A stretch of 39,042 bases of DNA from a virus (IMGVR_UViG_3300047409_000156:1-39042); one strand, 5' to 3'. Shown: positions 1,332-31,654, numbered from the stretch's first letter. The notes: a model not told the origin generated them from the letters alone. Made by a program: numbers and translations.

Positions 1332-1485
1332 TCCGAGGGGGACCGTCCTGCGAATGTACGTAGGTCCATTGCGCCACGGCGGGGTGAGATATACGCTGCT
1401 CTCTCGGATGCGCTCTATCCAGTCGCCGCCTGTCTCGGCTATCGTGTCAACTCTGCATGGACTTCTCGTGTGATGTGGAGCGTGA
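1332..1485. other. Non-coding gap of 154 bp
   Basis: The stretch contains only weak inverted repeats: ATCCGAG at 1331-1337 with CTCGGAT at 1403-1409, and GGACC/GGTCC arms near 1350-1376. No convincing -35/-10 pair was found. A GGAG near 1475 can serve as ribosome binding site for the gene at 1486. It may hold a promoter or a processing site that is not obvious by eye. Confidence 0.5.
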
Positions 1486-1923: not shown

Positions 1924-1924
1924 C

Positions 1925-2613: not shown

Positions 2614-3428
2614 CGCAGCCCACGCTCAACGGCAGACTGCTCCCTCCGCAGGATTGGGAGGGCGACGACGCCACGCCGGGAGCACACGGGGCGTACGTGA
2701 CGTGCCAGGACACGGCTTCCTCGAGGATGCTCTACTACGCCACGAATGGTGACGTTGACATCGACGGGCAGGCCATCCGCGCCGCCATCCGACCACGTGA
2801 CAGCGATGGGGTGAGTCTCGGCCAGGTCTCCGTGGCGATCCAGTCGCTTACCAGTCCGTCGCGCGTCCTGAAGTGGTCCACCATGACCCTGAACGACGTG
2901 CGGAGCTGGCTCGATGCAGGTCTCGGTCTCGTGGTCAACGGCTACTACGGCGCGATCCCCTTCGCCTACCGCGAACAGGCCCGCGCCGACTTCAACCACG
3001 CCGTCTGGATCAGCAACCGCGAACGTCCGCACTACCGTGTCTGGGATCCGCTGAACAAGAACCTGGACAGCTACGGCCGGATGATCCCGGACTACGCCAT
3101 CGAACCCTTCATCCGCAGCCTCTCGGGGCTATGCGGCTGGATCACCCTCGAGCCACTGGCACCACCCGCGGGAGGCAACCCCTTGATGAACCTCGTCCCC
3201 ACGACGTGCCATCGCGTCGTGGCTCTTCCGAAGGGCACGGTGCTCTACAAGACGCCAGGCGGTGACGACTACACCACCCTTGGCGAACCGATCAAGCTCG
3301 GGTACCTCGCAGCGACCTCGACGCACTACTTCGTCGCAGATGGCGATGCGGGCGTCTACGTGCTGCGAACACTGCCGAACGGCCAGCCGGTCCCGGTGCT
3401 GACCGAAGACAAGAACGTGGGAGTCTGA
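2610..3428 (+). CDS. C39-like cysteine peptidase endolysin with SH3b-like tail
   Basis: A 272-residue protein from GTG 2610 (GTGA overlap). The first 170 residues look like a papain-type C39-like peptidase: candidate catalytic Cys32 in YVTCQD, His130 in DFNHAVWI and Asp146 in VWDPLN, with the typical AGLGLVVNGYY strand between them. Residues about 202-266 (VVALPKGTVLYKTPGG...) resemble a bacterial SH3 domain, which binds the cell wall. The family cuts peptide bonds, so the expected substrate is the peptidoglycan stem or cross-bridge. A holin follows immediately, which supports an endolysin role. Substrate specificity is unknown. Confidence 0.72.
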   Translation: MTQPTLNGRLLPPQDWEGDDATPGAHGAYVTCQDTASSRMLYYATNGDVDIDGQAIRAAIRPRDSDGVSLGQVSVAIQSLTSPSRVLKWSTMTLNDVRSWLDAGLGLVVNGYYGAIPFAYREQARADFNHAVWISNRERPHYRVWDPLNKNLDSYGRMIPDYAIEPFIRSLSGLCGWITLEPLAPPAGGNPLMNLVPTTCHRVVALPKGTVLYKTPGGDDYTTLGEPIKLGYLAATSTHYFVADGDAGVYVLRTLPNGQPVPVLTEDKNVGV

Positions 3429-3432
3429 ACCA

Positions 3433-3804
3433 ATGAAAATCCTCGGACGCGAACCTACACTTTGGATCTCGCTGATATCGTCGGGGATCGTCCTGCTGGG
3501 GACGCTCGGGTTCCACTATCTGACGGGTCAGCAGGCGGCGCTCATCGTCGCCCTCATCAACGGGATCGCACTCGCGATCAACGCCTACGCCGTGCGGCCG
3601 ATCAGTCCCGTCGCGTTCACCTACGTTGTGGGCGCGGCCGTCGCCGTCGCTGCGTCCTACGGGCTCAATGTCAACGCCGACCAGATGGCCTCGCTCAACG
3701 CACTCGTCATCACGACGCTGGCGCTCTTGACCCGTGGCCAGGTATCTCCGACCGAGACCGTCATCACCAAGGCGTCACTCGATCCGGTCAAGGTGTCCGA
3801 ATGA
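3433..3804 (+). CDS. Holin (actinophage type)
   Basis: A 123-residue membrane protein. The start MKILGREPTLWISLI, the following hydrophobic segments at about 10-30, 34-52 and 60-80, the motif RPISPVAFTYVVGA and the end ALLTRGQVSP match the holin family that follows endolysin genes in many phages of high-GC Gram-positive hosts. It would form the membrane lesion that releases the endolysin or depolarises the cell. It is placed four bases after the endolysin stop. Confidence 0.85.
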   Translation: MKILGREPTLWISLISSGIVLLGTLGFHYLTGQQAALIVALINGIALAINAYAVRPISPVAFTYVVGAAVAVAASYGLNVNADQMASLNALVITTLALLTRGQVSPTETVITKASLDPVKVSE

Positions 3805-3965
3805 ACGACTCCATCGCCTTCCTTGCGCTCGCAACGATCTTCGGCATGGCGATGCTGATCGTGGGCTGGTCACTGCGGCAAGTTCGCGAGGAGCAGGAAG
3901 TGCGCTCTTCGCTCGCTTCATGGGTCCGCGATTATCCAGACGACGCGGACGCTGCCGGGGCGTAG
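3801..3965 (+). CDS. Small single-span membrane protein
   Basis: A 54-residue protein with an ATGA overlap to the holin. Residues about 5-25 (IAFLALATIFGMAMLIVGW) are one membrane segment followed by a charged cytoplasmic-type tail. Coupling to the holin suggests a holin modulator or second lysis membrane protein, but there is no family evidence. Confidence 0.6.
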   Translation: MNDSIAFLALATIFGMAMLIVGWSLRQVREEQEVRSSLASWVRDYPDDADAAGA

Positions 3966-4001
3966 GATTGCCGCGACTCGCCATAGAGAAGGGAACCTGT
4001 C

Positions 4002-4292
4002 ATGGCCGATACCCTCGACACCACCGCTGCACCCCGTCGCCTGCTCGTAGACGGGCGCAACCCCACCGCCGACGAGGCGATCAGCTCGGACGACAACGGC
4101 ACGCTCATCACCATCGCGGAAGCGGACGCGGACGGCAACGTCCTCGTGTCAGGCGTGGCGGACGCCGCCGGAACGGTCACGATCTTCGTCGCGCCAGGCG
4201 CGGAGGACGCGAACCGCACGACCGGCACCGATGTCGTGGAAGTCACCACCCCCGTTGCCCCGACGCCGCTCGTCGTCTCCCTCGAGCCATGA
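4002..4292 (+). CDS. Small beta-rich protein, Ig-like appearance
   Basis: A 96-residue protein with a good ribosome binding site (GAGAAGGG about 10 bases upstream). The sequence alternates short beta-type segments (LITIAEADADGNVLVSG, AGTVTIFVAP, DVVEVTTP) and is rich in Asp, Thr and Val, as in immunoglobulin-like or decoration domains. It could be a minor virion or host-surface binding protein. The family was not recognised. Confidence 0.6.
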   Translation: MADTLDTTAAPRRLLVDGRNPTADEAISSDDNGTLITIAEADADGNVLVSGVADAAGTVTIFVAPGAEDANRTTGTDVVEVTTPVAPTPLVVSLEP

Positions 4293-4468
4293 CCGCGGAA
4301 GTCAGTCACACCTCGATCACCGAGACGGAGGACGGCTGGTACGTCGTCATCACCGACGTGGCGAACGCGGTCATCCGCACCAAGGGCAAGCGCATCACCG
4401 TGGCGGTGACGCCGGACGATGACACGGACACCACGCCGCTCGAGGTGACACTGGAGGACGGCGCATGA
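4289..4468 (+). CDS. Small acidic beta-type protein
   Basis: A 59-residue protein with ATGA overlap to the previous gene. It is acidic and Thr/Val-rich (DGWYVVITDVANAVIRTKG, then VAVTPDDDTD), with no membrane segment. Its tight coupling and similar composition suggest it works with the Ig-like protein upstream. Function unknown. Confidence 0.55.
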   Translation: MTAEVSHTSITETEDGWYVVITDVANAVIRTKGKRITVAVTPDDDTDTTPLEVTLEDGA

Positions 4469-4674
4469 CCCCGCTCATCTCCCGCCTCGTCCTGGCCGTC
4501 ATCATCGCGGTGGTGGTGACGCTGGCCTGCATCCTGCTCGGCGGCATCCTCGTGACTCTGAAGGTGGGCATCGCCGTGACGGTCGGTGACTTCCTGCAGA
4601 GTTACGGAGCGGTCCTCGGCGTCCTCGCCGGACTCTGGTACTTCTTCACGAACGGCGGCATCAGGGCGACGTGA
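4465..4674 (+). CDS. Two-span membrane protein
   Basis: A 69-residue protein with two hydrophobic segments (about residues 6-32 and 45-62, the latter ending in LWYFFTNGG). It overlaps both neighbours by four bases and is the last membrane protein before the terminase. It may be an additional holin or antiholin. Sequence alone does not decide. Confidence 0.6.
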   Translation: MTPLISRLVLAVIIAVVVTLACILLGGILVTLKVGIAVTVGDFLQSYGAVLGVLAGLWYFFTNGGIRAT

Positions 4675-5132
4675 GGGGGGAGCAGCCTCGCCGCGACAAT
4701 GCACTACGCCTTAAAAAGGCGCGGTTCCTGGAGGCGTTCGCTCGTTGCGGGACAGTGACCCACGCGGCCGCCGAGGTTGGTGTTGATCGTTCAGCTCACT
4801 ATCGTTGGCTGGAGGACGTGGAATACGCCGCGCTCTTCGTCGTAGCCGAGGAACAGGCGTTCGACAACCTGGAACGCGAGGCGCGGCGCAGGGCTGTTGA
4901 GGGCACCGAGAAGCCCGTCTACCAGGGCGGCGAACTGGTCGGGACCATCCGCGAGTACAGCGACACGCTCCTGATCTTCCTCATGAAGGGTGCACGGCCG
5001 TCGAAGTACCGTGAGCGCGTGGACGTGACGCTGGACGTGAAGCGCGAGATCGAACGTCTCACCAGCGATCCGGCCGAACGTGAGGCGGCCATCGCAGAGG
5101 CGCAGCGCATCCTCTCCGCGGCGAAGACCTGA
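4671..5132 (+). CDS. Terminase small subunit-like protein
   Basis: A 153-residue protein with a GTG start in a GTGA overlap. Residues about 15-45 contain a helix-turn-helix (FARCGTVTHAAAEVGVDRSA, followed by YRWLED) of the type used by small terminases to recognise the packaging site. The rest is helical and charged (ERLTSDPAEREAAIAEAQRI). Position directly upstream of the large terminase, sharing one base, strongly supports the call. It would select phage DNA and regulate the motor. Confidence 0.82.
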   Translation: MRGEQPRRDNALRLKKARFLEAFARCGTVTHAAAEVGVDRSAHYRWLEDVEYAALFVVAEEQAFDNLEREARRRAVEGTEKPVYQGGELVGTIREYSDTLLIFLMKGARPSKYRERVDVTLDVKREIERLTSDPAEREAAIAEAQRILSAAKT

Positions 5133-6460
5133 TGCTGGGAACGAACCCCGCGCAGGAGCTCGCCGCCTTCGCGGTTGCTCGGGTTCGTCTTGCTCAGGCA
5201 TCAGCCCCGACCGAAGCGCTCGCATGGCGGGCAAAGGCCCGACCGGAGCAGCTTCCGCCCGACTCATGGCGAACGTGGTACGTCCGCGGTGGGCGTGGTT
5301 CAGGGAAGACCTGGACCGGCGCGAACACTCTCGCGGAGATGGCGCTGCAGGAACCGGGCGACTGGGGCGTGGTGGCCCCGACCTTCGCGGACATGCGGGA
5401 CAAGTGCGTCGAGGGACCGTCTGGGTTGCTCCGAGCGTTCGGTACCAATGCCGTCGAGGTACGGCGCGGCGCGTCAAGGGTCGTGGAGGCGTGGAACCGC
5501 TCGCTGGGTGATCTGCGTCTCCGCAACGGTTCGGTGATCCACGGCGACGGCGCCGATGACGGAGCGCCGACCATCCAGGGCTATAACCTGCGCGGCCTGT
5601 GGGCCGATGAGGTTGGCCTGTGGAAGGCGTGGCGACAGGCCTGGGAAGAGTCGATCCGCTACGCCGTCCGCCTCAGTCCTGCGCGCATCGTGGCGACCGG
5701 CACGCCGAAGCGTGGACACCCGCTCGTCAAGGCACTCATGGCTGACGACAACGTGACCAAGACGCTGCTGCGTACCACGGACAACGCGGCCAACCTCGAT
5801 CCCGACATGCTCGCGGAACTGCTCGCCAGGTACGGCGGGACGACGCTGGGTCGGCAGGAGCTCGAGGGCGAGATCCTGACCGACGTTCCGGGCGCACTCT
5901 GGAAGCGCAGTCTCATCGACATGCTGCGCGTTCCGAAGGCGCCGGAACTCACGCGTATCGTGGTAGCGATTGATCCATCTGCCACGTCAACAGAGTCAGC
6001 GGACGAGTGCGGCATCGTCGTGGACGGCATCGACATCCAGGGGCACGGTTACACGCTCGAAGACCTTTCGCTGCGGGCCTCTCCGAGCGACTGGGCGATG
6101 CACGCCGTCGCGGCCTATCACCGGCACAAGGCCGACCGCATCGTGGCCGAGTCCAACAACGGCGGTGAGATGGTCAGTGCGGTCATCCACGCCGTCGACC
6201 CATCGGTCTCTGTGAAGCTCGTCCATGCGAGTCGGGGCAAGCACACCCGCGCTGAGCCGATCGCTGCGCTCTATGAGCAGGGACGCTGGCACCATGTCGG
6301 CTTCTTCGAGGAACTGGAAGACCAGCAGTGTTCATGGAACCCGGAGACAGACCTGAACTCACCGGACCGCATGGACGCCCACGTCTGGGGCGCTACCGAG
6401 CTCCTGGTAGCGCAGGGTGGCTGGGGCGCGGTGACCGGCTCTGCGGGAGGCGTGGCATGA
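5132..6460 (+). CDS. terL: Terminase large subunit
   Basis: A 442-residue packaging motor. The ATPase domain has Walker A GGRGSGKT (residues 53-60), Walker B LWADE with Asp159-Glu160, and a coupling motif ATGTPKRG (188-195). The C-terminal RNase H-like nuclease has acidic residues at Asp281 (VAIDPS), Glu340 (VAESNNGG) and Asp415 (DRMDAHVWG). Length and motif order fit the Terminase_6 type. It cuts concatemeric or circular phage DNA and pumps it into the prohead through the portal encoded downstream. The GC-rich gene shares its first base with the end of the small subunit gene. Confidence 0.95.
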   Translation: MLGTNPAQELAAFAVARVRLAQASAPTEALAWRAKARPEQLPPDSWRTWYVRGGRGSGKTWTGANTLAEMALQEPGDWGVVAPTFADMRDKCVEGPSGLLRAFGTNAVEVRRGASRVVEAWNRSLGDLRLRNGSVIHGDGADDGAPTIQGYNLRGLWADEVGLWKAWRQAWEESIRYAVRLSPARIVATGTPKRGHPLVKALMADDNVTKTLLRTTDNAANLDPDMLAELLARYGGTTLGRQELEGEILTDVPGALWKRSLIDMLRVPKAPELTRIVVAIDPSATSTESADECGIVVDGIDIQGHGYTLEDLSLRASPSDWAMHAVAAYHRHKADRIVAESNNGGEMVSAVIHAVDPSVSVKLVHASRGKHTRAEPIAALYEQGRWHHVGFFEELEDQQCSWNPETDLNSPDRMDAHVWGATELLVAQGGWGAVTGSAGGVA

Positions 6461-6756
6461 AGGAACCGGTGATAATGCGGACCGTCTCAGTGACTCGCGG
6501 TGACATCGTTCGCGGCAAGCCTGGGCAACAAGATGCCTGTCCAATCGCGTTAGCCACACGGCGGCTGCTTCGCACCAAGGCAAGCATATGGGCCGAGCCT
6601 GAATACTTGGGAGGCGTCCTAATCTCCCGGTGGGATGGCCGGTCTAAGGTTCTGCGTCCAATTGGCAGGATGCCTCCAGTTGCACACCGATGGATGGAAG
6701 CCTTCGACGAAGGAACTCACGTAGATCCGATCCGCATTCCCCTCTCAATGAAATGA
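6457..6756 (+). CDS. Conserved phage protein of the CPIALA type, function unknown
   Basis: A 99-residue protein starting at ATG 6457 in an ATGA overlap. The pattern VTRGDIVRGKPGQQDACPIA, followed by a segment ending in RWMEAFDEGTHVDPIRIPLS, is that of a small soluble protein found widely in phages with no known function. Base composition is visibly less GC-rich than the flanking terminase and portal genes (for example AGCATATGGG and CTTGGGAGGC), which could indicate later acquisition. Confidence 0.65.
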   Translation: MKEPVIMRTVSVTRGDIVRGKPGQQDACPIALATRRLLRTKASIWAEPEYLGGVLISRWDGRSKVLRPIGRMPPVAHRWMEAFDEGTHVDPIRIPLSMK

Positions 6757-6911
6757 CCGACGCCATCAGCGTCCGCCTTGACGCCGCGTTCGTGCTCGCC
6801 GTGACCGGCGCTGCGCTGATCGTGCCGTGGGGCGCGCTGGTGGTTGGTGCGGCGTTCCTCGTGGGCAACGCGGTATGGGCGTGGCGCAGTGCGCCGAAGG
6901 TGGCCGAGTGA
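6753..6911 (+). CDS. Small hydrophobic protein
   Basis: A 52-residue protein from ATG 6753, overlapping the upstream stop by four bases. Residues about 11-44 are almost entirely hydrophobic (FVLAVTGAALIVPWGALVVG, then AAFLVGNAVWAW), giving one long or two short membrane spans. It is not part of the lysis region and its role is unknown. Confidence 0.55.
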   Translation: MTDAISVRLDAAFVLAVTGAALIVPWGALVVGAAFLVGNAVWAWRSAPKVAE

Positions 6912-7153
6912 TCGGACCGAAGAAGCTCGACGCATTGAGTGCGCTTGTGACGAAGAACCACACTGACGGTCACGCGTTCGCTGATCGCGTCCTCATTCGG
7001 CAGGGCTATGCCGAGAAAGAGGCCGATGTGACGCTAGAGCGAGTGATTGATGGACGACTGGCCGAGTGCGGTGTCTCGGCGCGCACGGGATGGCTCGAGG
7101 AGCGCGGAGTCGCTGAGCTTGAAGCGGCCATTCAGCGGGATCTCTTGGCGTGA
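6908..7153 (+). CDS. Small soluble protein, unknown
   Basis: An 81-residue protein starting GTG 6908 in a GTGA overlap. It is charged and helical, with no cysteine cluster and no membrane segment. It is coupled by overlap to the portal gene and may be co-translated with it. No family recognised. Confidence 0.55.
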   Translation: MIGPKKLDALSALVTKNHTDGHAFADRVLIRQGYAEKEADVTLERVIDGRLAECGVSARTGWLEERGVAELEAAIQRDLLA

Positions 7154-9429
7154 GCATCTTCGTCCCGCCGCGCCCTGCTCCGACGGTCTCCGCTGCCGCG
7201 CAGAAGGCGGGGCCTGTCGGGCAGGGTGCCGGCGTCCTGATGACGGAGTTCCCGCTGCTGTCCATCCTGGGCGGGCAGACGCCCCAGGAGAAGATGCGCA
7301 AGGCGCTGCAGATCGCCAAGGACGCTGCGTGGCCGGAGGCTGCCGAGGACGTGATCGGGATGACGATCACCGGCCAGCCGTGGACCCTCGAGGACGCCGA
7401 GGACGCCGAGGTCGACGCCTCGTACCCGAACCCTGCCGCGAAGCGCGCCCTGGCATTGCTGGACAAGCCCTACGCGAAGATTGAGGTAGGCCGGAGGTAC
7501 ACCCGCTCTGAGCTGTGGCGGATGACGCTCCGTCACATGGGCCTGTGTGGGAACTCGTTCTGGTTCCTCGACGGGCGGGACATGCTCGCGGGGACGCCGG
7601 ACTCGACGCTGTACATCGCACCGTGGCGGATGTCACCGAACGAGGACGAGAAGGGCAACCTGCTGTCCTGGCAGCTCGATCGTTCTCCGAAGTCCGAAGG
7701 GTTGTTGCTGGAACTCGAAGAGGTCATCCACTTCATGCTTCGGCCGCCGGACACGGGCCACTTCGGGCGTGGCCTGATCGAGTCCGCGATCATGAAGGCG
7801 CAGAACTCCATCGGCTTCGACAAGCACATCGCGCAGGTGCTCAGCGCAGGTGGAAGGCTGTCCGGCCTGCTCTCCCCGAAGGCCAACGAGACGATCAACG
7901 ACCAGCAGTACATGCAGCTCGTCGCAGACGCCCGGACGGTCGTGGAGCAGCCCGACGCCGCGAAACGCCTGCAGATCCTCCGCGGGCCGATCGAGTTCAC
8001 CCAGACCACGATGACCCTCGCTGACCTCCAGGTGGTCGAGCTGATGAAGCTCGCGCGGGACGATCTGCTCGCGCTGTGGGGCGTTCCCCTGTCGCAGATC
8101 GGCGGGGCCACGCCGGCAGGGCTGAACAGCGGCGAGACGCGAAAGTACGACAAGCAGGCACTCTGGGAGAACGCGAACCATCCCCGCGTGGTGATGTTCT
8201 CCGAGGCGATCCAGCAGGGCATCGTCGATCCCTTCGCCGTCCTCGGCATCGAGCTGGAGTTCGAGATCGAGGAACCCGAGTTCGACGATGACTCGGCCCG
8301 CTTCGACCTTCTCGGCAAGTCACTGAGCAGCCCGCTGCGGAACAAGGAGCGTCGGGCGCTGGTCGGCCTGGAGCCATTCGGTCCGAGCGTCGTGAACCCT
8401 GCTACGGGCATCGCCCTCGACGACGAGGTGTGGCTGCCGGTCAACGTGGCGATGTCCTACACCGCCCCGGAAGAGGGCACGATGCCGCAGGCCGCCATGC
8501 CGATGGGCACGCCGATGCTCACCGTCGTCCCGGACATGACGCCGCAGAACGACGCTGCGCAGGCTTCCGCGGGCGAGTCGAACGCCCCGCCGGTCGTTGC
8601 CAAGGCCGACGTGAAGCCCCATCTCCAGGGGTTGCACTCCTCACTCACCAAGCTCCGCGCCTCGATGGACGAGCGCATGACGCCGCGCGTGAAGGACCGT
8701 GTCGCAGTCGTCCTGGACGAGCAGCACCGTGAGGTCATGGCAAGGATCAGGGGCAACGCCGCGCACATCATCGCCAACCCGCGCGACACGTCCGTATGGT
8801 GGGACGCTGTGAAGTGGGACCGCAAAATGACGGAGGCATTGAAGCCCACGCTGGTTGGCATGGCCGAGCAGGTGCAGGCGCAGGTGGCGAACGTCCTTCC
8901 TCCCCAGAAAGCCGGTCCGGTAACTGCGGTCGAGCACGTCCTGACCCGCGGCGCGACGCGCGTAACGGGTCTGAACAATCGCACCCGAGACGCGATCATC
9001 GCCACCATCCGCGAGGTGGTCGCAGAAGCAGTCGATGAGCAGTTGAGCCCAGCCGTCGCAGGTGATCGCCTGGAAGCAGCCTTGGCAGGCTCGACGCTGG
9101 ACAACGGCACGCCCGCCTTTGACGAGTACCGCGCCGAGATGATCGCCCGCACCGAGCTCATGGCGGCCTACAACGACGCCACGCTCGGCTCGTACGCGGA
9201 CGGTGGGATCGAGATGGTGGAGGCCATCGACGGCGACGAGGACGAGGAGTGCATCGACCGCGTTGCCAGGAACCCCTACACCCTCGAGGACGCCGACGCG
9301 GAGCAGGACCATCCCAACGGGACGCTGGACTGGCTGCCGGTCATCCCCGGCAAGGCGGCAGGGATGCGGACGGAGATCGAATACGACGATGAGGGCCGCC
9401 TGAAGGCCGTCGTCGAGTACGCCATCTAG
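7150..9429 (+). CDS. Portal protein fused to MuF-like head morphogenesis domain
   Basis: A 759-residue protein with GTG start. Residues about 85-440 have the HK97-type portal pattern: [23 protein letters not shown], a helical clip/wing region and the segment [18 protein letters not shown]. The C-terminal 200 residues match a MuF/minor head domain ([17 protein letters not shown] at about 658, then ECIDRV and EDHPNG-like [13 protein letters not shown]). In actinophages these two functions are often fused. The usual Cys of the HPNC motif is Gly here, as in that fused subtype. It forms the dodecameric DNA gate at one capsid vertex. Confidence 0.9.
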
Positions 9430-9431
9430 CC

Positions 9432-10961
9432 GTGACCACGGGGCGCTACCTGATCCGCGATGTCCTGACGCGCCAACTGGAGAAGCAACCTCCCGTCGTC
9501 AGGGGACCGCAGGGCGAGGAAGGCCCGCCCGGTCAGTCCGGTCCGCAAGGACCGCGAGGCGCGGCGGGCAAGGCCGGCATCGCCCTGGACGGTGTGACGG
9601 GGCCTGTCGGTCCCATCGGTCCCATTGGTCCGACCGGCGTCACCGGTCCGAAGGGCGACACGGGAGAAACCGGCCCGAGCGGCGCGCAGGGCTTTACCGG
9701 GCCGCCCGGTCCCGCGGGTGGTGGGCGCAAGGACGACGCGCTGAACGCGTGGGCGTTCCAGTCCGCGGCGTTCAACCTGATCGACCACGGCACGCCACTG
9801 GGAACCGTCACCACCCTGGACTTCGAGGGACCGGGCGTCACTGTCAGTCGTGTCGCGCCGGGAGCTGGAACGGCGACCATCACGGGCGGGGGAGGCGGCA
9901 GCGGGACCGCTCTCGAGGACACCATCGCGCAGACCGGCCACGTCCTCGCGGTCGGGGACATCGTCCGCTTTGACGGGGCGAACTACGTCGTGGCGCAGGC
10001 CGACTCGGCGGCGAACGCCGAGGTCGTGGGCATCGTCTCGGCAGTGGCGGACGCAGACCATTTCACGCTGACGACCTCCGGCCTCATCGACGGGCTGGCG
10101 GGCCTGACGGCGGGCGAGGTGTACTTCCTCTCCGAAGTCACGCCTGGCCTGCTGACCACCACCGAGCCGACCGGTGTGGGGGAGGTGAGCAAGCCGGTCC
10201 TCATCGCCATCTCCACGACGAGCGGCTACCTGACGAACTTCCGCGGCTCGGTCATCGCGGTGCCCATCGCCGCCTCCGACGTAACGGTAGATCCGACCGT
10301 GGCCGATGCAGCGGACGTGCAGGCGGCGCTGGAGACGCTGGCCATCACAGCCATCGTTTCGGAAACGGAGCCGAGCCCAAAGCGGTCGGGCATGATCTGG
10401 GTGCGAACGTACCCGACCAATCTGTTGAGCGCGCCCCCGCCCTATCCCGCCTATGTCTGCGACTCTCTCGGTGACTGGCTGGAGATCGGCCAGGCGCACT
10501 TTGATGGGAATGGCGTCCTTCGCAGCCTCGTCCAGACGGTGGACGACAGCGTGACGATTGCGTACTACGACGCCTCGGGAGTATTGCGCGCGTATATCCC
10601 GATCGCGACCTCGGGTATCGACCTCTGGATGTACGACGACGCCGCGAACCTGCGCACGATGCTCAACATCAACGGCGGGACACATCCGGACATCGAAGGT
10701 GTGATCCGCAACGCGAGCGGTGACACGATGGCCGCTTTCACCGTGGCTGGCGATGCTGACGGTGGTATCCAGCTTCAGATCGGTGATGGTTCGGACAACA
10801 TCCTCACCTTCAAGGACAACGGACTAAAGATCATCAGCACTGGGATCGGTTTCTTTGGCACGGCCCCGACTGGTCAGCCAATCGTTCCGCTGACTAGTCC
10901 GACTATTCAGAACGTCATTGATGCGCTCACGTCAATCGGCCTTGTTCTGCAGAGTGACTGA
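9432..10961 (+). CDS. Collagen-like tail fibre 1
   Basis: A 509-residue protein from GTG 9432. Residues about 24-98 are a collagen-like run of Gly-X-Y triplets ([19 protein letters not shown] and similar). A beta-rich middle part follows ([20 protein letters not shown], then a long segment to about residue 275) of the kind found in phage fibres, and the last 170 residues form another beta-rich region. The collagen part should trimerise into a rod that carries receptor-binding domains. It is unusual that this gene follows the portal instead of the other tail genes. Confidence 0.82.
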
Positions 10962-11003
10962 CGTGAGCCCATCCTCCCTGCCCTGCCTGTCCGCGGAGAC
11001 GGC

Positions 11004-12977
11004 ATGAGCACGTCCGCCTTCGAGGCTGCGCAGGGCTCGCCAGGACCGACCGGCGCGACCGGGCCTGATGGTTCGACCGGCCCAGCAGGCTCGACGGGTA
11101 GCGCAGGCGCGACAGGCTCTACGGGGACGGCCGGCGCAACGGGCAGCGCAGGTTCGACTGGTCCTGCTGGTGCTACGGGTTCGGCAGGCGCAACTGGCAG
11201 CGTCGGCGCAACGGGCGCAGGTGGAACAACCGGCAGCACCGGAACGCAGGGCGCGCAAGGTCTGACCGGCACCGTAGGAGTCACTGGTCAGCAAGGGCAG
11301 ACAGGCTCTACGGGCACCCAAGGCGTTCAAGGACTCACAGGCACGGTCGGAGACACGGGCACGCAGGGCACGCAGGGCATCCAGGGGATCACGGGTGCAA
11401 CGGGTACTCAGGGTATCCAGGGGATCACGGGATCAACCGGGATAGCTGGGGCTACGGGCGTTGCCGGCGTCACGGGCAGCGTCGGCGCGACCGGAACTGC
11501 GGGCACGAATGGCATCACCGGCCCGACCGGCGTCGTCGGTGTAACGGGAGCCACCGGCCCGCAAGGTATCCAGGGCCTGACGGGAGTGGCGGGGGTTACC
11601 GGTTCAGTCGGCCTGACAGGATCAGGACTCACGGGCGTGACGGGGGTCACGGGCCTGACCGGCGCAGGGATCACCGGTGTCACGGGTGTTCAGGGCCTCA
11701 CCGGAGCGCAGGCGCAGACAGGCAATACCGGCGTGGCGGGTGTGACCGGGAATACGGGCGTCATCGGAGTAACGGGCGCAACCGGCCTCACGGGCGCGGG
11801 CGTTACCGGAGTCACTGGCGCAACCGGCCCCACCCCGACCTTCGTCATCCCCGCGATCACCTTCTCCGGCGTTGCGCAGACCGGCACGGCAGGCACGGCG
11901 ATCAACTCGGATGCAGCGATTGCAGCGTTCACCGGCACGGCACCCGTGGCCCAGAACTACGGATCCGCCTCCTCGACAGGCACATCGCTCTTCGCCGCCC
12001 GCAGCGACCATCTGCACGGTGAGACAGGACCGAAGCTTGAGATCTTCACCGTCACCACCGGGGTCTGGACCAAGACTGCCGGGGCGAAGCGCATATTCGT
12101 CCAGGTCTGGGGCGGCGGTGGAGGTGGAGGCGGGGGAACAGGAGCGGCGGCCGTCGCGGGTGGCGGGGGCGGTGGAGGTGGGGGTTACGCCGAAGCGTGG
12201 TTCGACCCGGCCGACGTCACCGGCGTGACCGGCGTCACCGTGGGAGTCGCGACCACGGGCGCGGCGCAGGGCGTGAACGGCGCATCTGGCAACTTCTCCG
12301 CGTTCGGTGCCTACCTGCAAGCATTCGGCGGTGGGGGCGGACAGGCCGGCGCAGCGGCCACTGGATCGGGTGGCGGTGGCGGTGGAGGGATGTGGGCCGG
12401 TGGCGCGAACGGCTCCGCTGCTGCCGGTGGGGCCGGTGGCGGGCCCGGAGGTGGTGCTGCGAACTCCACAGCGCAGGGGCCACAAGGTGGCGGTGGTGGA
12501 CAGACGCGTACGACGAACATGGGCGTTGCGTCCGGGATCGGCTACAACAACTGGGGCGGTGGAGGCGGTGGTGGGGGAACCTCCACGGGTGTCGCAGGCA
12601 CTGGCGGTTCCGGTACGACCTCCATCTACGGGGGTGGCGGTGGCGGGGCAGGAGGAGGCCGCACCACTGCCGTCGCAGGCTTCGCTGGCGGGCCGGGTGG
12701 CCTCGCGGGCGGGGCAGTGACAGCAGTGAACCAGACGGACGGTGCGGGCGGTACAGCAGGACTCTCAGGCGTTGCGGGCAGCCGCACCGGCTCGTGGGGC
12801 GGCGGTGGAGGTGGAGGAGGGGGTGGCACCGGCGCGGCTTCTGCCATTGCTGGTTCAGGTGCTCCCGGCGGCGCTCCTGGTGGGGGTGGCGGTGGAGGCG
12901 GCGGCGGCTCCGGCGCGCAGGGGGGCGGTGGCGGCGCAGGAGCGCGCGGCGAGGTCCGGGTGACGACGTGGGGCTGA
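11004..12977 (+). CDS. Collagen-like fibre 2 with polyglycine adhesin domain
   Basis: A 657-residue protein from ATG 11004, with a CGGAGA ribosome binding site. Residues about 12-275 are collagen-like and unusually rich in Gly-X-Thr triplets (for example [19 protein letters not shown]), with a few four-residue interruptions after residue 200. Then comes a motif common in phage fibres ([14 protein letters not shown], about residue 330), a strand segment ending in [10 protein letters not shown], and about 290 residues of glycine-rich repeats. The last part resembles polyglycine receptor-binding tips of tailed phages. It probably binds the host surface as a trimer. Thr in Gly-X-Thr triplets is the known glycosylation site in bacterial collagen-like proteins such as BclA. 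Confidence 0.85.
11040..11840 (+). repeat. Degenerate 9-bp repeats coding Gly-X-Thr/Ala triplets
   Basis: The DNA is built of short GGC-NNN-ACG/GCG units that encode the collagen-like rod of fibre 2. Several longer units recur nearly exactly, for example the one coding GIQGITG at about 11375-11395 and 11408-11430. Such repeats allow slippage or recombination to change rod length. Confidence 0.8.
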
Positions 12978-13069
12978 TACGCGGCGCTGGTTCGCACCAG
13001 TGGCCGGCTCTCGCTTCTGTCTCGCGCGAGACCTCAGCTTCATCCGGTTCGCAGGCCCGGCATCGTCAT

Positions 13070-13104
13070 GACTCCGACCGGGTTACCGCCGCGACCTCGG
13101 AGTC
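13070..13104 (+). promoter_or_regulatory. Hairpin covering the ribosome binding site of the glycosyltransferase at 13108
   Basis: GACTCCGA (13070-13077) and TCGGAGTC (13097-13104) form a perfect 8-bp inverted repeat, with three further pairs (GGT/ACC) inside. The right arm contains the only Shine-Dalgarno-like GGAG (13099-13102) before the ATG at 13108. The folded RNA would hide the ribosome binding site. This suggests translational control, but it has not been tested. Confidence 0.5.
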
Positions 13105-13107
13105 TAT

Positions 13108-14265
13108 ATGACGCTGCACGTACTTGGCTTGCCGTGGACGGAGACGACGCGAGAGTGGGAGGCCGAAGCCTTCACCGCGCGCACGCGCGTCCTCGCCACG
13201 ATGATGAGCATGTACGGGAAGGTCGCTCTCTACGGCGGCGAGCGCAACGAGGCCGTGGTGACCGAGTACGTCCCCATCGTCGACCGCGCATGGCAGCAGC
13301 GCCACTTCCCCGGCCTGACCTCCGCGACGACGTTCAGCGACTATGACCCGTCACGTCCTCACTGGATAGAGTTCAACGTGCGCGCAGCGGACGCCATCCG
13401 CAAACGGGCGAAGCGCGGCGATCTTCTGGGCATCACGATGGGCGTCAGTCACCAGCTCACAGCGACCCTGCTCGCAGACCTGGAACTCGTCCCGGTCGAA
13501 GTCGGGATCGGCTACAAGGGCGTCTGGGCACCGTTCAGGGTGTTCGAGTCGTGGGCGTGGCGTTACTTCCACTCGGGCTACGCAGATGGCATCGCGACGG
13601 GGCAGGGTCAGGAGGGCGCTGATCTGCTCTCGGACGTGCGCAACTTCGATGAGACGATCCCCAGGGCCTACGAAGTGGCGGACTTCCCAGAGGGCCAAGG
13701 AGACGGTGGGTACTTCCTCTATCTCGGCCGCGTGGTTGCGCGCAAGGGCCCGCACATCGCCGCGGACGTATGCAGAAGGATCGGCGCGAAGCTCATCGTG
13801 GCGGGCCAGGGCGTGGCGTCGGACGAACTGGGGCGCATCACCGCGACGGACGGGACGATCCTCGAGGGCGACGTGGAGTACGTCGGAGTGGTGGGAGTGG
13901 AGGAACGCGCCAGGCTGATGGGCGGTGCCATCGCCACGTTCTGCCCGACGCTATATTTGGAGCCCGGAGGGGGCGTAGGGATCGAGTCGCTTCTAACGGG
14001 CACGCCCATCCTGTCCGCCGAGTGGGGCTGTTTCCGGGAGTACATCGTCCCCGGAGTCAACGGCTATACCTGTCCGACGCTCGCGGATTTCATGAACGGA
14101 GCGAAGTCAGCCGGTTCCCTGAACCGCTACGCCATCCGTCAAAATGCCATCGGACGTTATGGCACTGATGCGATCGGGCCTCAGTTCGACAGGTATTTTC
14201 GGCGTCTCAGAACTCTCCGTCGCGAGGGATGGTATGAAACGCCTCCGATGCGGCTTGTCGCATAG
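13108..14265 (+). CDS. GT-B glycosyltransferase (GT4-like)
   Basis: A 385-residue protein. The C-terminal half has the GT-B pattern: GYFLYLGRVVARKGPHIAAD (about 201-220, the nucleotide-binding start of the second Rossmann domain), IVAGQG (about 230-235) and EPGGGVGIESLLTGTPILSA (about 285-304), the equivalent of the E-x7-E sugar-nucleotide signature. The N-terminal half is less typical but begins with a short strand and glycine. It should transfer a sugar from a nucleotide donor, but acceptor and donor are unknown. It directly follows the collagen-like fibres, and its 3' end overlaps the HNH gene on the opposite strand by 59 bases. Confidence 0.82.
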   Translation: MTLHVLGLPWTETTREWEAEAFTARTRVLATMMSMYGKVALYGGERNEAVVTEYVPIVDRAWQQRHFPGLTSATTFSDYDPSRPHWIEFNVRAADAIRKRAKRGDLLGITMGVSHQLTATLLADLELVPVEVGIGYKGVWAPFRVFESWAWRYFHSGYADGIATGQGQEGADLLSDVRNFDETIPRAYEVADFPEGQGDGGYFLYLGRVVARKGPHIAADVCRRIGAKLIVAGQGVASDELGRITATDGTILEGDVEYVGVVGVEERARLMGGAIATFCPTLYLEPGGGVGIESLLTGTPILSAEWGCFREYIVPGVNGYTCPTLADFMNGAKSAGSLNRYAIRQNAIGRYGTDAIGPQFDRYFRRLRTLRREGWYETPPMRLVA

Positions 14266-14635
14266 CCCGCTTGTGGTCCCTATCACGCATGTTGTCCTGA
14301 TGAGTGCCGAGCCACAGGTGCCGGACATTGACGCAGCCGCGGTTGTCGCAGGTGTGCAGGACATGCAGGCCATCTGGAATGGGCCCGTTGGCGAGTTGCC
14401 AGGCGACTCGGTGGGCATGGACCATGCGCCCGTCTATGTTGATCTTCCCGTACCCCTTGCCATCACCAGAGCCGGTCCATTGCCAGCACTCATCGTCCCC
14501 GCCGCGTCTCGTCTTGGAGGCCATGCGCTTCGGGAGCGGAATGTAGTGGGCTGCCTTGACTCCGACCCGGACGGCCTGACGCCTGCCGATCTCCGCTCGC
14601 ACAGCTTCACTGCGTACGTACACGCCCTTTGGCAT
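14207..14635 (-). CDS. HNH endonuclease (homing type), antisense in the glycan cassette
   Basis: A 142-residue protein read on the minus strand, starting at ATG 14635; an upstream in-frame ATG at 14662 would add nine residues. It has the HNH_3 pattern: CWQWTG, GYGKI, AHRVAW, then LHTCDNRGCVNVRHLWLGTH and QDN. The His and Asn residues of this segment bind metal and cut DNA. Free-standing HNH genes of this type spread between phages by homing. It is one of only three minus-strand genes, lies between two glycan genes and overlaps the 3' end of one of them, as expected for an inserted selfish gene. Confidence 0.88.
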   Translation of the reverse strand: MPKGVYVRSEAVRAEIGRRQAVRVGVKAAHYIPLPKRMASKTRRGGDDECWQWTGSGDGKGYGKINIDGRMVHAHRVAWQLANGPIPDGLHVLHTCDNRGCVNVRHLWLGTHQDNMRDRDHKRAMRQAASEAFHTIPRDGEF

Positions 14636-14641
14636 ACGTGT

Positions 14642-14670
14642 ACTGTACGACAGATGGCGCATTCTGTGAG
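14642..14670 (-). promoter_or_regulatory. Possible promoter of the HNH gene
   Basis: On the minus strand CTCACA (14670-14665) is followed after 17 bp by TACAGT (14647-14642). Each matches the sigma70 consensus at four of six bases. The -10 ends six bases before the ATG at 14635, so the transcript would be leaderless, as proposed for the repressor-like gene at 32604. The match is weak. Confidence 0.3.
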
Positions 14671-14679
14671 AGGACTGAC

Positions 14680-15603
14680 ATGACCAAGGCCATCATCTCC
14701 ATCGCCGCGCGCATGGCCTCGACGCGCCTGCCGGGCAAGGTCATGGCCGAGGTCGGCGGGAAGCCCATCCTCCAGCATCTCGTGGAACGCCTCTCGCGCT
14801 CGCGGGCCGAGGTGGTCATCGCGAACAACGGGGGTGATCCAGAGATCCTCGATCTTGCCGACCGGCTTGGCGTGTACTGCTTCCATGCCGATCTCGATGT
14901 CATGGATATCCATCGGCTCGCTGCTGTATGGAGTCACGCCGACTTCATCCTGCTCGCCGGGGCCGACGATCCCTTCCTCGATCCTGCCCTCTTCGATCTT
15001 GTCCTGGACCGCCTGGAGCGCGGCGACGTGCAGTACGTCAAGACGCAGGGCTGGCCGCTGGGCATGAACGTCTGGGGCTGGACGCGCGCCGCGATGGAGG
15101 ACGGCCACCGCCTCGCCACGGCACCCGACGAGCGCCAGCACGTCGTGCCGTTCTGGGAGCGCCGTCCGCTGACCTACCCCGCCGCCGTGATCCGGCGAGA
15201 CGGACCGGATCTATACGATCATTACCGGCTCACGGTGGATAACCCATCTGATCTGACGTTGACGCAGTACCTCTACGGCGTCATCGGGGCCACCAGTATC
15301 GAAGCGGAGAGAGTGATCCGCTATCTTGCTCTCCATCCTTCAGTGGTCGCCATCAACGTCGATGGTCTGCGCGGCACCGCTGCCCGCGATGCGATCTACG
15401 ACGTGACGCCCGTGGAGAACGTCATGGAAGGGCTGACGCGTCACCCTCTGAGTAAGCATTTGGACGAAATCCGCGAGCACATCGCAGTCGAACGCCGCGC
15501 CGCTCTCGCAGCAATCCCCGAGCAGGGCGGCTTCGCAGAGGGCCGCGCGGCTGCCCTGCTATCCGTTGAACAGTGGCTCAGGTACAGGGAAGCGGCGCGA
15601 TGA
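14680..15603 (+). CDS. Cytidylyltransferase-like protein, SpsF/CMP-sugar synthetase type (first copy)
   Basis: A 307-residue protein from ATG 14680, with GAGAGGA as ribosome binding site. The N-terminus has the nucleotidyltransferase signature RMASTRLPGK (11-20) followed by GGKPILQHLVERL, and an acidic metal site GADDPFLDP (about 94-102). The later VDNPSDLTLTQYL (about 186-198) is also typical of SpsF and CMP-KDO synthetases. These enzymes couple CTP to acidic sugars such as KDO or nonulosonic acids. A second copy lies at 19724, and both share the segment QGWPLGMN/RGWPIGLN. The gene is followed without a gap by a DUF115/GT42-like gene. Confidence 0.8.
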   Translation: MTKAIISIAARMASTRLPGKVMAEVGGKPILQHLVERLSRSRAEVVIANNGGDPEILDLADRLGVYCFHADLDVMDIHRLAAVWSHADFILLAGADDPFLDPALFDLVLDRLERGDVQYVKTQGWPLGMNVWGWTRAAMEDGHRLATAPDERQHVVPFWERRPLTYPAAVIRRDGPDLYDHYRLTVDNPSDLTLTQYLYGVIGATSIEAERVIRYLALHPSVVAINVDGLRGTAARDAIYDVTPVENVMEGLTRHPLSKHLDEIREHIAVERRAALAAIPEQGGFAEGRAAALLSVEQWLRYREAAR

Positions 15604-16406
15604 GAGCGTTGCCCGACGCGGCTATCGATGGTCAATCGATTGCGCCTGAGCGCGTTCGCGTTGTCGGGCCGCTCCGATCAGCAACTGCCGATCCACCTCC
15701 GGTGACTAGCCGGATTGCGGGCAGTATCGCGCACTTCCGTGGCGCGCTGCAAGGTCGGACCGTTATCGTCCTCGGAGCGGGCGGGCTGGACTACCTTCGA
15801 CCTCGGGCGCTGGAAGCCCTGCCTGTCATCAGCGTGAACAGCTCCGCGCGGAAGTGGGGCCTGACGCCGCAGTACGTCGTAGTCAAGGAGCACACGGAAG
15901 AGGCGATCCCCAACGCAGGAGCCTTCCCCGGCGTGCCGATCATCTGCTCCGCCGGTCCCTACGGCAACCCGGATCGTCCCACACCGCCGGACATTGCGGA
16001 CCTGTTCATCTACGACCACCTGCCGAACAAGGCTGCCGACTTCGATGCGGTCCGCGACTGGCCCACGGAACCGGACCAGCTCGTCGTCTCAATGTCCACG
16101 ATGACCACTGCCATGCACTTCGCCTGCTACGCCGGGGCGAAGGTCATCCTCGTGGTGGGGCTGGTCTGCGGGCTCCTCGAGGGACGTACCCACTTCGCGG
16201 GCTACGGCCACCCTGCCGACCCGGACGGCGAGCAGCCTGCGTGGATGGCGGACTGGCTGGCGAGGACCGAACGCCAGGCGCTCGGCGTGAAGCGCGAACT
16301 CCAGCGCAGATACGACGTGGACATCCTCGGCCTTTTCCCCTGGATCAGCCCCGAACTCGACGGGCTGAGTTATCGCAGCCCGACGAATACGATCAACGAG
16401 TGGTGA
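15600..16406 (+). CDS. DUF115/GT42-like sugar transferase candidate (first copy)
   Basis: A 268-residue protein in an ATGA overlap with the cytidylyltransferase. After a 50-residue leader it has a Rossmann-type start (TVIVLGAGGLDYLRP, residues 54-68), then a strand giving VISVNSSARKWGLTPQYVVV. This resembles the DUF115/Maf group and GT42 sialyltransferases, which use CMP-sugars. Later parts (LVVSMSTMTTAMHFACYAGA, then VILVVGLVCG) fit the same fold. Pairing with a CMP-sugar synthetase supports the call. The active-site residues of GT42 are not identified with certainty, so a different Rossmann enzyme remains possible. Confidence 0.55.
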   Translation: MRALPDAAIDGQSIAPERVRVVGPLRSATADPPPVTSRIAGSIAHFRGALQGRTVIVLGAGGLDYLRPRALEALPVISVNSSARKWGLTPQYVVVKEHTEEAIPNAGAFPGVPIICSAGPYGNPDRPTPPDIADLFIYDHLPNKAADFDAVRDWPTEPDQLVVSMSTMTTAMHFACYAGAKVILVVGLVCGLLEGRTHFAGYGHPADPDGEQPAWMADWLARTERQALGVKRELQRRYDVDILGLFPWISPELDGLSYRSPTNTINEW

Positions 16407-17608: not shown

Positions 17609-19048
17609 GTGTCAGAGACAGACTTCACCGAGAAGATGGGCGAACTCACCGGAGCGATCCGGGAGCTCGTCGGTCGGATCGACGAGACACGCAGCAAGGC
17701 GAGCGCCGAGGACAGTGGCCGGGTGGTCGCTGCCGAGGCGGGGATCGCAGAGAAGACGGCCGAGATCCTTGCAGCGAAGGAGCAGCAGGCGGCCGAGGAG
17801 AAGAAGCGCATCGACGAGGCGGTGAAGGCGGCGCTGGCCGACCTCCGCGTGCCGTCGAAGGCAGGGCTGATCGGGCAGGGCCAGGCCGCCGATCCGGTCA
17901 ACCGCATGATCGCAGGCGGCAACGGCGGCACACCGCACCCCGCCCTCAAGGCCAGCATCCGCGACTACCAGGCGGGCGAGCTGCTGACCGCCCTGCTGGA
18001 CATCCACGCCATCGAGACCGGCGGCATCGACTTCGAGGCCGTGCAGCGTGGCAAGGCCAAGCTGGCGGACCTCGGCGCGCTCTGGTGGGGCATGCCGGAA
18101 GCCTCGAAGGCAACGCTCGGCGCGACGGGCGCAACAGGCGGGTACGTCCTGCCGAACAACCTCGTCGACACGCTGGTGAAGCCTGAGACACAGGCGGCCG
18201 TCTACCAGCTCCTCGTCACGGTCCGCACGGGCGTCAACGTCCGCGGCGTGGACCAGCCGTACCGCACCGGGGCTCCGGCCCGGATGGTGTTCCAGGACTG
18301 GGGCACGACCAAGGAGAACGTGAACGAGGCATATGGCTCGTACACGGCCACCCTCGGCACGCTGGCTCGCATCTACGACATCGGCAAGCAGTACGCCCGC
18401 TTCTCGGCAGGCGCGGCGGAAGCCGACGTGATCGACGAGCTCGGCAAGGCCGCCATCCTCGGTGAGAACTACTACATGCTCGCGGGCGCAGGCACCGGCT
18501 CCGTCGGGACCGGCGATCCGACCGTGGGCATCTACACCGCCCTCGCCAACGGCTTCGGTGGCGCGTACACCACGACCGGCGTCCCGGTCGCGGGCACCAT
18601 CGCAGGCTCCGCGGCGGCGCAACTCCTGACCGCCTTCGGCGCGCTTGCTTCTCGCTCGCGCACCCCGTCCGCGGTGGTCATGGACGCGGCCACGTACTAC
18701 AGCCTGTTCGCGCAGGGCTCGGACACGGCCGGGTTCTTCATGTCCGAACTGCTCGGCGCGGGCTTCCAGGTCGGCGGCGACTTCTCGCTGCGCTTCCGGG
18801 GCATCCCGATCTACTACGACGCCAACTTCAACACGAACACCTCAACGACCAAGCGCGCCATCGCGGCCGACTGGAAGGTGTTCAAGTTGTACCGCGGCAT
18901 GGAGTTCCGCATCGACACCAGCGACGTCGCAGGAGACCGCTGGGACAAGAACCTCATCGGCTTCCGCGGTGAGGAAGAGATCGGCTGGAACGCCTACACG
19001 GGTTGCGCGGTCGGAGCCGCACAGCTCATCACCGGCGTCATCCCCTGA
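17609..19048 (+). CDS. Major capsid protein (HK97 fold) with N-terminal scaffold domain
   Basis: A 479-residue protein from GTG 17609. Residues about 1-75 are a charged coiled coil (RELVGRIDETRSKASAED and AAKEQQAAEEKKRIDEAV), matching the delta/scaffold domain that the protease removes. The rest follows the phage capsid pattern: ATGATGGYVLPNNLVDTLVK before the first structural strand, a spine helix region around EADVIDELGKAAILGENYYM, and the C-terminal segments RSRTPSAVVMDAATYYSLFA and FRGIPIYYDANF. It forms the icosahedral shell. It is the expected most abundant virion protein and sits between the two glycan cassettes. Confidence 0.92.
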   Translation: MSETDFTEKMGELTGAIRELVGRIDETRSKASAEDSGRVVAAEAGIAEKTAEILAAKEQQAAEEKKRIDEAVKAALADLRVPSKAGLIGQGQAADPVNRMIAGGNGGTPHPALKASIRDYQAGELLTALLDIHAIETGGIDFEAVQRGKAKLADLGALWWGMPEASKATLGATGATGGYVLPNNLVDTLVKPETQAAVYQLLVTVRTGVNVRGVDQPYRTGAPARMVFQDWGTTKENVNEAYGSYTATLGTLARIYDIGKQYARFSAGAAEADVIDELGKAAILGENYYMLAGAGTGSVGTGDPTVGIYTALANGFGGAYTTTGVPVAGTIAGSAAAQLLTAFGALASRSRTPSAVVMDAATYYSLFAQGSDTAGFFMSELLGAGFQVGGDFSLRFRGIPIYYDANFNTNTSTTKRAIAADWKVFKLYRGMEFRIDTSDVAGDRWDKNLIGFRGEEEIGWNAYTGCAVGAAQLITGVIP

Positions 19049-19052
19049 TCGC

Positions 19053-19727
19053 ATGACAGTCTCTGCCGCCCTGCTGGTCCTCGACCCTCCCGTCGACCGC
19101 CTGGCTGCACTGGTCGAATACCTCCGGCCGGTGGTCAGTCAGTACGTGGTCGTGGTCGATGACCGCACGGCGGTAGAGACTGCCGAGACGATGGCGAAGT
19201 GGCCCGACGTGACGCTCGTCCCCTTTCGATGGGTGGACGACTTCTCGGCGGGCCGCAACGCCGCACTCCCCCACGTCACGGGCGACTGGATCCTGCACGT
19301 CGACCCGGACGAACTGCCCTCCCACGCCATGCTCGACTTCATCCGTTCCGTGGACGCGGTGCAGCAGCAGGACGTGATCTGGCAGGACGCCCTGTATCCC
19401 GCCCCGCTGGGCTATCTCTTCTTCACCCGCAACTGGTACGGCGGAAGGCGCGGCGAGGAATGGGAGGAGCACTGGCACTGCCGGCTCTTCCGCAACCATC
19501 CCGCCAGTCGCTGGTACAAGCCCCTCCACGAACAGGTGATGCTGCATGGACGCGCGGAGAGCGATACCCGCGGGACGCCGTTCCTCCCGAAAGCTCCCCT
19601 GGGCGCATATCTCATCCACTCCAAGCCCGCCGAGCGCATCGGCGTCGACGATGCCGTCTACAACCGCATCGAGGCAGCCGACCTCACCAAACGAGAGACC
19701 GCCTACACCATCGCAGGAGAGCAATGA
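19053..19727 (+). CDS. GT-A glycosyltransferase, family 2 type
   Basis: A 224-residue protein. It has the GT2 pattern: strand SAALLVLDPPVDRLA, then VVVVDDRTAVETAE, the signature DDFSAGRNAAL (62-72) and the metal-binding acidic motif DPDE (84-87) in ILHVDPDELP. Later residues EEHWHCRLFRNHPASRWYKP fit the acceptor side of small GT2 enzymes related to SunS-type transferases. It should transfer sugar from a nucleotide donor with a divalent metal. It begins four bases after the capsid stop and is followed by the second cytidylyltransferase gene. Confidence 0.85.
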   Translation: MTVSAALLVLDPPVDRLAALVEYLRPVVSQYVVVVDDRTAVETAETMAKWPDVTLVPFRWVDDFSAGRNAALPHVTGDWILHVDPDELPSHAMLDFIRSVDAVQQQDVIWQDALYPAPLGYLFFTRNWYGGRRGEEWEEHWHCRLFRNHPASRWYKPLHEQVMLHGRAESDTRGTPFLPKAPLGAYLIHSKPAERIGVDDAVYNRIEAADLTKRETAYTIAGEQ

Positions 19728-20458
19728 CGACGGCACTGCTCATCACGGCACGCATGACCAGCGAGCGGCTGCCGGGTAAGCCGGTCATGGACATCTGCGG
19801 CCAGCAGGCGCTGGCGCTGATGCTGCGCCGCCTCAAAGGCTCGGCAGACTACATCGTCGTCTGCGCACCGGACGACGGGACGAGCGAACCCATCGAGCAC
19901 GCCATCCCTCCCGGCACTGCCACCCTGTTCCTCGGTCACCCGACAGACCTGTTGGCCCGGTTGGCGGGCGCTGCGAAGTACGTGCGGGCGACCGAGGTCG
20001 TGATGACTGGGGCTGACTGTCCGTTGACGGAACCGGGCGTAGTGCGCGTTGCGCTGAAGGCCGTTGCCGCTACTCTCCACGCGAACGTGCAGACGCGCGG
20101 CTGGCCTATTGGTCTCAACGTCCAGGCCGTCACGACATGGCCGCTCTACGAGGCAGACGCGGAGGCTGTCGATCCCGACGAGCGCATCTACTACAACGCC
20201 TTCTTCGACCGCCGGCCGGATCGCTTCCCGCTGGTCACCGTGACTCGTCCAGGTGCCGACGAGTACGCACATCGCGTCACGCTGGACACTGCTGCAGACC
20301 TTGCGCTCATCCGCCAGATCGTCGGAGAACTGGGACCGGGCTGCACGGGGGAGGAGATCATCGCGTGGTTGCACGCGAACCCCGACGCCGACCGCACGAC
20401 ACGGGGCGGGTACAACTACCACCCCGACACGAGCACGCTCATGGCCGTCCCGGCATGA
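19724..20458 (+). CDS. Cytidylyltransferase-like protein, SpsF/CMP-sugar synthetase type (second copy)
   Basis: A 244-residue protein in an ATGA overlap. It has RMTSERLPGK (10-19), the metal site TGADCPLTEP (95-104) and VTLDTAADLALIRQI near the end. It shares the internal pattern RGWPIGLNVQ and FFDRRPDRFPLVTV with the 14680 gene (WERRPLTYPAAVI there), so the two are paralogues. It is about 60 residues shorter, mainly at the C-terminus. The expected reaction is CTP plus an acidic sugar giving a CMP-sugar. A DUF115/GT42-like gene follows immediately, as with the first copy. Confidence 0.8.
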   Translation: MTTALLITARMTSERLPGKPVMDICGQQALALMLRRLKGSADYIVVCAPDDGTSEPIEHAIPPGTATLFLGHPTDLLARLAGAAKYVRATEVVMTGADCPLTEPGVVRVALKAVAATLHANVQTRGWPIGLNVQAVTTWPLYEADAEAVDPDERIYYNAFFDRRPDRFPLVTVTRPGADEYAHRVTLDTAADLALIRQIVGELGPGCTGEEIIAWLHANPDADRTTRGGYNYHPDTSTLMAVPA

Positions 20459-31641: not shown

Positions 31642-31654
31642 ACAGGAGCACCCG

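Follow-up and report, generated by a model that had tools for sequence, protein, structure and literature searches.

A glycosyltransferase family linked to Gly-X-Thr collagen-like fibre genes in phages and spore-forming bacteria

The virus record IMGVR_UViG_3300047409_000156 (39,042 bases, GC 66%; this whole stretch of DNA is termed the window) encodes a long collagen-like fibre, fibre 2 (11004–12977, + strand), and a glycosyltransferase of GT-B fold, GT4a (13108–14265, + strand), which starts 130 nucleotides (nt) after the end of the fibre gene. The two probably form a substrate–enzyme pair, with GT4a glycosylating threonine residues of the fibre rod, because the two genes are found side by side again in numerous phages that are not related and in bacteria that form spores. 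A wider reading, for and against which the case seems evenly balanced, is that GT4a is the founder of a family of dedicated collagen O-glycosyltransferases common to phages and spore-forming Bacillota, that it travels as one block with Gly-X-Thr fibre genes and has been exchanged between the fibres of phages and the collagens of spore surfaces, and that single phages may carry two separate, gene-neighbour-specific systems of virion glycosylation, for fibre and capsid respectively.

Fibre 2 and GT4a

Fibre 2 (657 amino acids, aa) contains 88 Gly-X-Y triplets, 83 of them in an N-terminal rod that is followed by a Gly-rich C-terminal part. The longest unbroken run is 44 triplets, compared with a maximum of seven in 2000 shuffles, and the Pfam Collagen match (5e-22; 77.8 bits, cutoff 27.2) identifies a long Gly-X-Y repeat. 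Thr occupies 44 Y positions, followed by Gln (14) and Ala (13); Pro is found at a single Y position and at six X positions. A sequence-only reading of this DNA had placed a Gly-X-Thr fibre at 11004 with a glycosyltransferase gene next to it, and both genes and coordinates proved correct.

GT4a (385 aa) matches phrog_3408 (5e-46) and Pfam Glycos_transf_1 (7e-11; 42.4 bits, cutoff 26.4), the profile of GT4 enzymes. Its AlphaFold model (predicted local distance difference test, pLDDT, 88.5) has a GT-B fold, with Protein Data Bank (PDB) matches at 3e-17 and template modelling (TM) scores of 0.68–0.77. The nearest solved structures are cyanobacterial GT4 enzymes that use uridine diphosphate (UDP)-glucose, so a UDP-hexose is a fair guess at the donor. 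The catalytic E-x7-E motif is present in the window's protein as E285 and E293; E293 is invariant in an alignment of 25 rows, while E285 is not among the invariant residues listed.

Linkage to collagen genes in viral contigs

Single-sequence scans of viral contigs with the portal protein or GT4a gave no relatives; only an alignment-based scan succeeded, returning >590 GT4a relatives, of which the best 80, not a random sample, were kept. Together with isolate sequences and the window, these formed 31 clusters at 70% identity, and linkage was assessed in the 26 with at least 3 kb of upstream sequence. Other genes in the same loci served as the control for the expected values, and 50,000 simulations were run. 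It had been proposed that related phages would show the two genes together more often than expected, and this was borne out: a same-strand collagen gene lies within 3 kb upstream of GT4a in 16 of the 26 clusters (5.7 expected) and within 150 nt in eight (0.9 expected). Adjacency is thus about nine times that of the other genes in these loci, and none of the simulations reached the observed counts. Several contigs start within or just ahead of collagen repeats, which conceals some pairs. The order and strand, collagen gene and then GT4a, are nearly constant.

An outside control used the second GT4-type family of the window, GT4b (described below), in a four-sequence search that replaced a first control of two sequences and three loci. 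None of 17 GT4b clusters has a collagen gene within 3 kb upstream (Fisher p=2e-5).

The pair is present in both head and tail modules. In one contig (L013), GT4a stands behind a collagen gene in the tail module, and the window's GT4a is the sister of this sequence (support 100/98). Two distant phages, L027 and L043, have the order portal, small gene, Gly-X-Thr fibre, GT4a, protease, capsid and GT4b. L043 stops after GT4b; in L044, which is nearly its twin, a GT2-like gene, a relative of the window's GPSa gene and the adaptor come next, giving a gene order almost the same as that of the window. In L019 and L039, the terminase gene is followed by fibres and GT4a and then by the portal gene. The portal-side arrangement of fibre and GT4a is therefore recurrent. 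The sequence-only reading had supposed a relocation of two fibre genes from the tail module, and this simple account does not fit the finding of portal-side fibre genes in other phages.

Threonine content of the linked collagens

In 19 clusters, the share of Y positions occupied by Thr in the GT4a-linked collagens has a median of 0.59 and a minimum of 0.36. In a control sample of genes drawn with a residue-free Gly-X-Y pattern, the median is 0.09 and 22% of the genes attain 0.36 (p=3e-8 against the linked collagens). Antisense-frame bias was possible in the first comparison, and keeping one frame per place gave the same result. A sample of Lys-type collagens was dropped as a control since it selects against Thr.

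Isolate phages and bacterial genomes

With the GT4a protein as query, 50,697 phage records yielded 51 matches, all in Synechococcus phages. A second query added only weak matches in fecal phages (H97–H99), which were judged to be generic transferases and left out. In cyanophages, GT4a stands behind the collagen gene in the tail region. S-CAM7 has two Gly-X-Thr genes with GT4a directly behind them; in the related ACG-2014f, two small genes separate one Gly-X-Thr gene from GT4a downstream. S-CBWM1, whose lineage is distant (about 31% identity), has GT4a directly behind one Gly-X-Thr gene. A 2-oxoglutarate (2OG)-Fe(II) oxygenase gene lies near GT4a in S-CAM7 and ACG-2014f. Genes of 2OG-Fe(II) oxygenase or methyltransferase-like type are also close neighbours in T4-like GT4a loci (L008, 8978–9574; L010, 9052–9645 and 7420–7983; L079, 9130–9690), and these could modify the glycan or the fibre.

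Among 84,980 species genomes, 20 contigs match GT4a, mostly from metagenome genomes of Bacillota. In 11 Bacillota contigs, GT4a starts 79–309 nt behind a Gly-X-Thr gene. The four Bacillota collagens checked all have a BclA_C-like C-terminal domain, one above the Pfam cutoff and three below it, and in both of the loci checked the pair has a SipL-type spore gene immediately ahead of it. In the GT4a tree, the Bacillota sequences form a clade within the phage diversity, and members adjacent to a collagen gene occur on most branches; the tree was rooted by midpoint only and so does not give the direction of transfer between phages and Bacillota. Two sequences from bins labelled Microbacteriaceae (L495) and Rubrivivax (L488) group with S-CBWM1, so these bins probably contain phage contigs.

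Proposed reaction

The proposed sequence of events is as follows. GT4a, probably a user of a UDP-sugar, would transfer a sugar in the host cytoplasm to Thr at the Y position of the Gly-X-Thr rod of fibre 2, before or during trimer assembly, and the glycan would stabilize the Pro-poor rod and shield the fibre. Two genes beside GT4a may provide another sugar and attach it. The first (14629–15603, + strand; Pfam CTP_transf_3 2e-15; PDB 6oew 2e-14) encodes a cytidylyltransferase-like protein of SpsF/KdsB type (copy a), which possibly serves the synthesis of a cytidine monophosphate (CMP)-sugar. The second, GPSa (15573–16406, + strand), is a possible transferase of MptE/GT42-like fold: sequence searches gave no family match, and its model (pLDDT 63) has weak matches to MptE-type HPPK and to the CST-I and CST-II sialyltransferases (E 2e-4 to 1.5e-3, TM 0.36–0.42). 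As a guess, the cytidylyltransferases and GPSa imply a CMP-sugar step.

Several observations weigh against a dedicated pair. Around one in three GT4a clusters lacks a neighbouring collagen gene. A full-length relative on a Pseudoalteromonas piscicida replicon (L500, 2216–6155) stands behind a radical S-adenosylmethionine (SAM)-like gene and a gene for a secreted-looking protein, again with no collagen nearby. Together, these suggest that the family may have other acceptors too. In the reverse direction, GT4a is present in only two of about 100 Thr-rich fibre loci picked by pattern, many of them incomplete, and in none of 52 generic collagen loci. The link is therefore one-way: Gly-X-Thr rods are common in phages without GT4a, and GT4a occurs more often with such rods than without. 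Within the window itself, no transferase gene adjoins a third fibre gene that has a Gly-X-Thr rod (fibre 3, described below).

The sequence-only reading had named two findings that would count against it, and each has examples here. A fibre occurs without GT4a in related phages, in the head modules of L399 and L400 (about 200–9200), where a short Gly-X-Thr fibre lies between portal and protease, and some GT4a genes have no collagen near them. Since both cases occur, the link between GT4a and the fibre is strong without being exclusive. In L399 and L400, a probable cell-wall hydrolase gene follows the fibre in the place of GT4a.

The capsid-linked block and alternative explanations

A second set of glycosylation genes follows the major capsid gene (17609–19048, + strand; Pfam Phage_capsid 5e-12). 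All five are on the + strand: GT2a, a family 2 glycosyltransferase (19053–19727; Pfam Glycos_transf_2 6e-7), which starts 4 nt after the capsid gene; a cytidylyltransferase-like gene, copy b (19724–20458; Pfam CTP_transf_3 2e-7); GPSb, a distant relative of GPSa (20455–21009; 25% identity by pairwise alignment, no Pfam family); GT2b, family 2 transferase-like from motifs read in the sequence (21000–21641; no Pfam or NCBIfam match); and GT4b, of a capsid-linked family (21638–22957; Pfam Glyco_trans_1_4 5e-13). The genes downstream of GT2a overlap. GT4b relatives have a capsid gene directly upstream in 68 loci, within 261 nt in 61 of them, and so the transferases of the 19053–22957 region belong to a type tied to the capsid gene in relatives. 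Given this, the 4 nt spacing of GT2a and the precedent of mycobacteriophages, the block is most likely a capsid-decorating set, separate from the fibre set. The fibre and the whole cassette had been taken as one system; the connection of GT4a with Gly-X-Thr fibres stands, and the part of that claim that covers the five genes after the capsid gene, with the capsid-linked GT4b among them, does not.

This block also gives grounds for an alternative in which the capsid is the target of all the enzymes of the cassette, GT4a among them, as in mycobacteriophages, and the fibre is a bystander between the portal and capsid genes. The cassette brackets the capsid gene, and some GT4a genes lie in head modules. 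We consider this explanation unlikely: a tail-region collagen gene precedes GT4a in cyanophages and in L013, the Bacillota genes stand behind spore collagens where there is no capsid, and among 50 records with GT4a an HK97-type portal or capsid is found in 12 and a Pfam Collagen match in 44. Of 32 GT4b-type head modules whose contigs include portal and protease, two have the fibre with GT4a, three a short-rod fibre without GT4a, none GT4a alone and 27 neither (Fisher p=0.02, from small numbers of unclustered loci).

GT4a might instead alter the host surface, for example O-antigen, and so block competing phages, sharing a hypervariable host-recognition region with the fibre genes. This is the usual reading for transferases beside tail fibres in pelagimyophages (PMC7029224), and fibre regions of actinophages are hypervariable (PMC10202952). 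Such a role would predict neither the fixed order, short gaps and bias to Thr-rich collagens nor the BclA-type pairing in Bacillota, and the unrelated phage family GT4b lacks any such link; we therefore hold it to be improbable. A third alternative, in which modular exchange and a limited sample of best hits produced the adjacency by chance, with no functional tie, would accommodate the Gly-X-Thr fibres without GT4a and the GT4a genes without a collagen neighbour, but is very hard to reconcile with the near-constant order and strand, the excess over other genes of the same loci, the spread of adjacent pairs across most branches of the tree and the Thr-rich character of every linked collagen.

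Other features of the window

A direct terminal repeat of 127 bases (1–127 and 38916–39042) points to a phage genome that was assembled as a circle and is probably complete. Genes on the + strand run in the order terminase, portal, fibre 1, fibre 2, GT4a, cytidylyltransferase a, GPSa, likely protease and major capsid, followed by GT2a, cytidylyltransferase b, GPSb, GT2b, GT4b, head–tail adaptor, tail genes and fibre 3. No relatives of the window's portal, capsid or cytidylyltransferase were found in isolate phages. As regards glycosylation of DNA, no modified-base genes turned up, although no systematic search was aimed at them.

Fibre 1 (9432–10961, + strand; 509 aa), which has PHROG tail fibre matches, consists of a short Pro-rich collagen-like stretch and a non-collagen body; Thr occupies six of its 24 Y positions. 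Fibre 3 (31655–32563, + strand), in the tail module, has a short rod of 24 triplets with Thr in 16 Y positions and is a possible second substrate for glycosylation. ARAGORN calls a tRNA-Arg at 31580–31673 on the minus strand, antisense to the region where one tail gene ends and fibre 3 starts; the call may be spurious or may mark a site related to integration.

Both cytidylyltransferases are similar to enzymes of the KdsB type. Each half of the cassette has one cytidylyltransferase gene followed by one GPS gene (33% and 25% identity between the copies, respectively), and the repetition in the same order suggests an old duplication. The first half is interrupted by an HNH endonuclease gene (14207–14662, − strand; Pfam HNH_3 8e-16), which is probably a mobile element outside the glycosylation system.

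Comparison with known systems

Collagen-like rods are common in phage fibres. No report of a glycosylated phage fibre collagen was found in the literature searched, a search in which most subscription journals were outside the scope. If the pairing is real, enzyme, substrate and acceptor site can all be named. It would explain how Pro-poor rods keep their fold, show where glycan shields on adsorption fibres could come from, and point to a role for transferases of the phrog_3408 type and for those beside BclA-type spore collagens. It would also allow fibre-linked and capsid-linked transferases, often grouped as enzymes that modify the host surface or DNA, to be told apart.

The virion glycosylation of mycobacteriophages, in which phage-encoded transferases are reported to glycosylate capsid and tail tube (cited in PMC12619734), is the closest match for the second cassette of the window; the substrates named in that citation do not include a collagen fibre. 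In mimivirus, L230, which is both a collagen lysyl hydroxylase and a glucosyltransferase, adds glucose to the hydroxylysine of viral collagen (PMC9614988). As proposed for GT4a, this viral enzyme modifies collagen-like proteins of the virus itself, but it differs from GT4a in its hydroxylysine acceptor, in the type of enzyme and in belonging to a giant virus of amoebae. The cuticle collagen of Riftia, as cited in PMC6953826, has a helix stabilized by glycosylated Thr rather than hydroxyproline; fibre 2 is also Thr-rich with almost no Pro in Y, although the Riftia protein is an animal collagen.

A close parallel in gene arrangement is with Clostridioides difficile, in which SgtA, encoded beside bclA3, transfers N-acetylglucosamine onto Thr of collagen-repeat peptides in vitro (PMC7157674). 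In both cases, the transferase gene adjoins a Thr-bearing collagen gene (Gly-Pro-Thr in bclA3); in the window the gap is 130 nt, and the arrangement is recurrent in relatives. BclA3 is located on the spore surface, whereas fibre 2 would be on the virion. SgtA, according to its description, is a GT-A enzyme with tetratricopeptide repeats encoded upstream of bclA3, whereas GT4a, of GT-B fold, is encoded downstream of fibre 2 and is not of the SgtA type. GT4a probably works like SgtA nonetheless.

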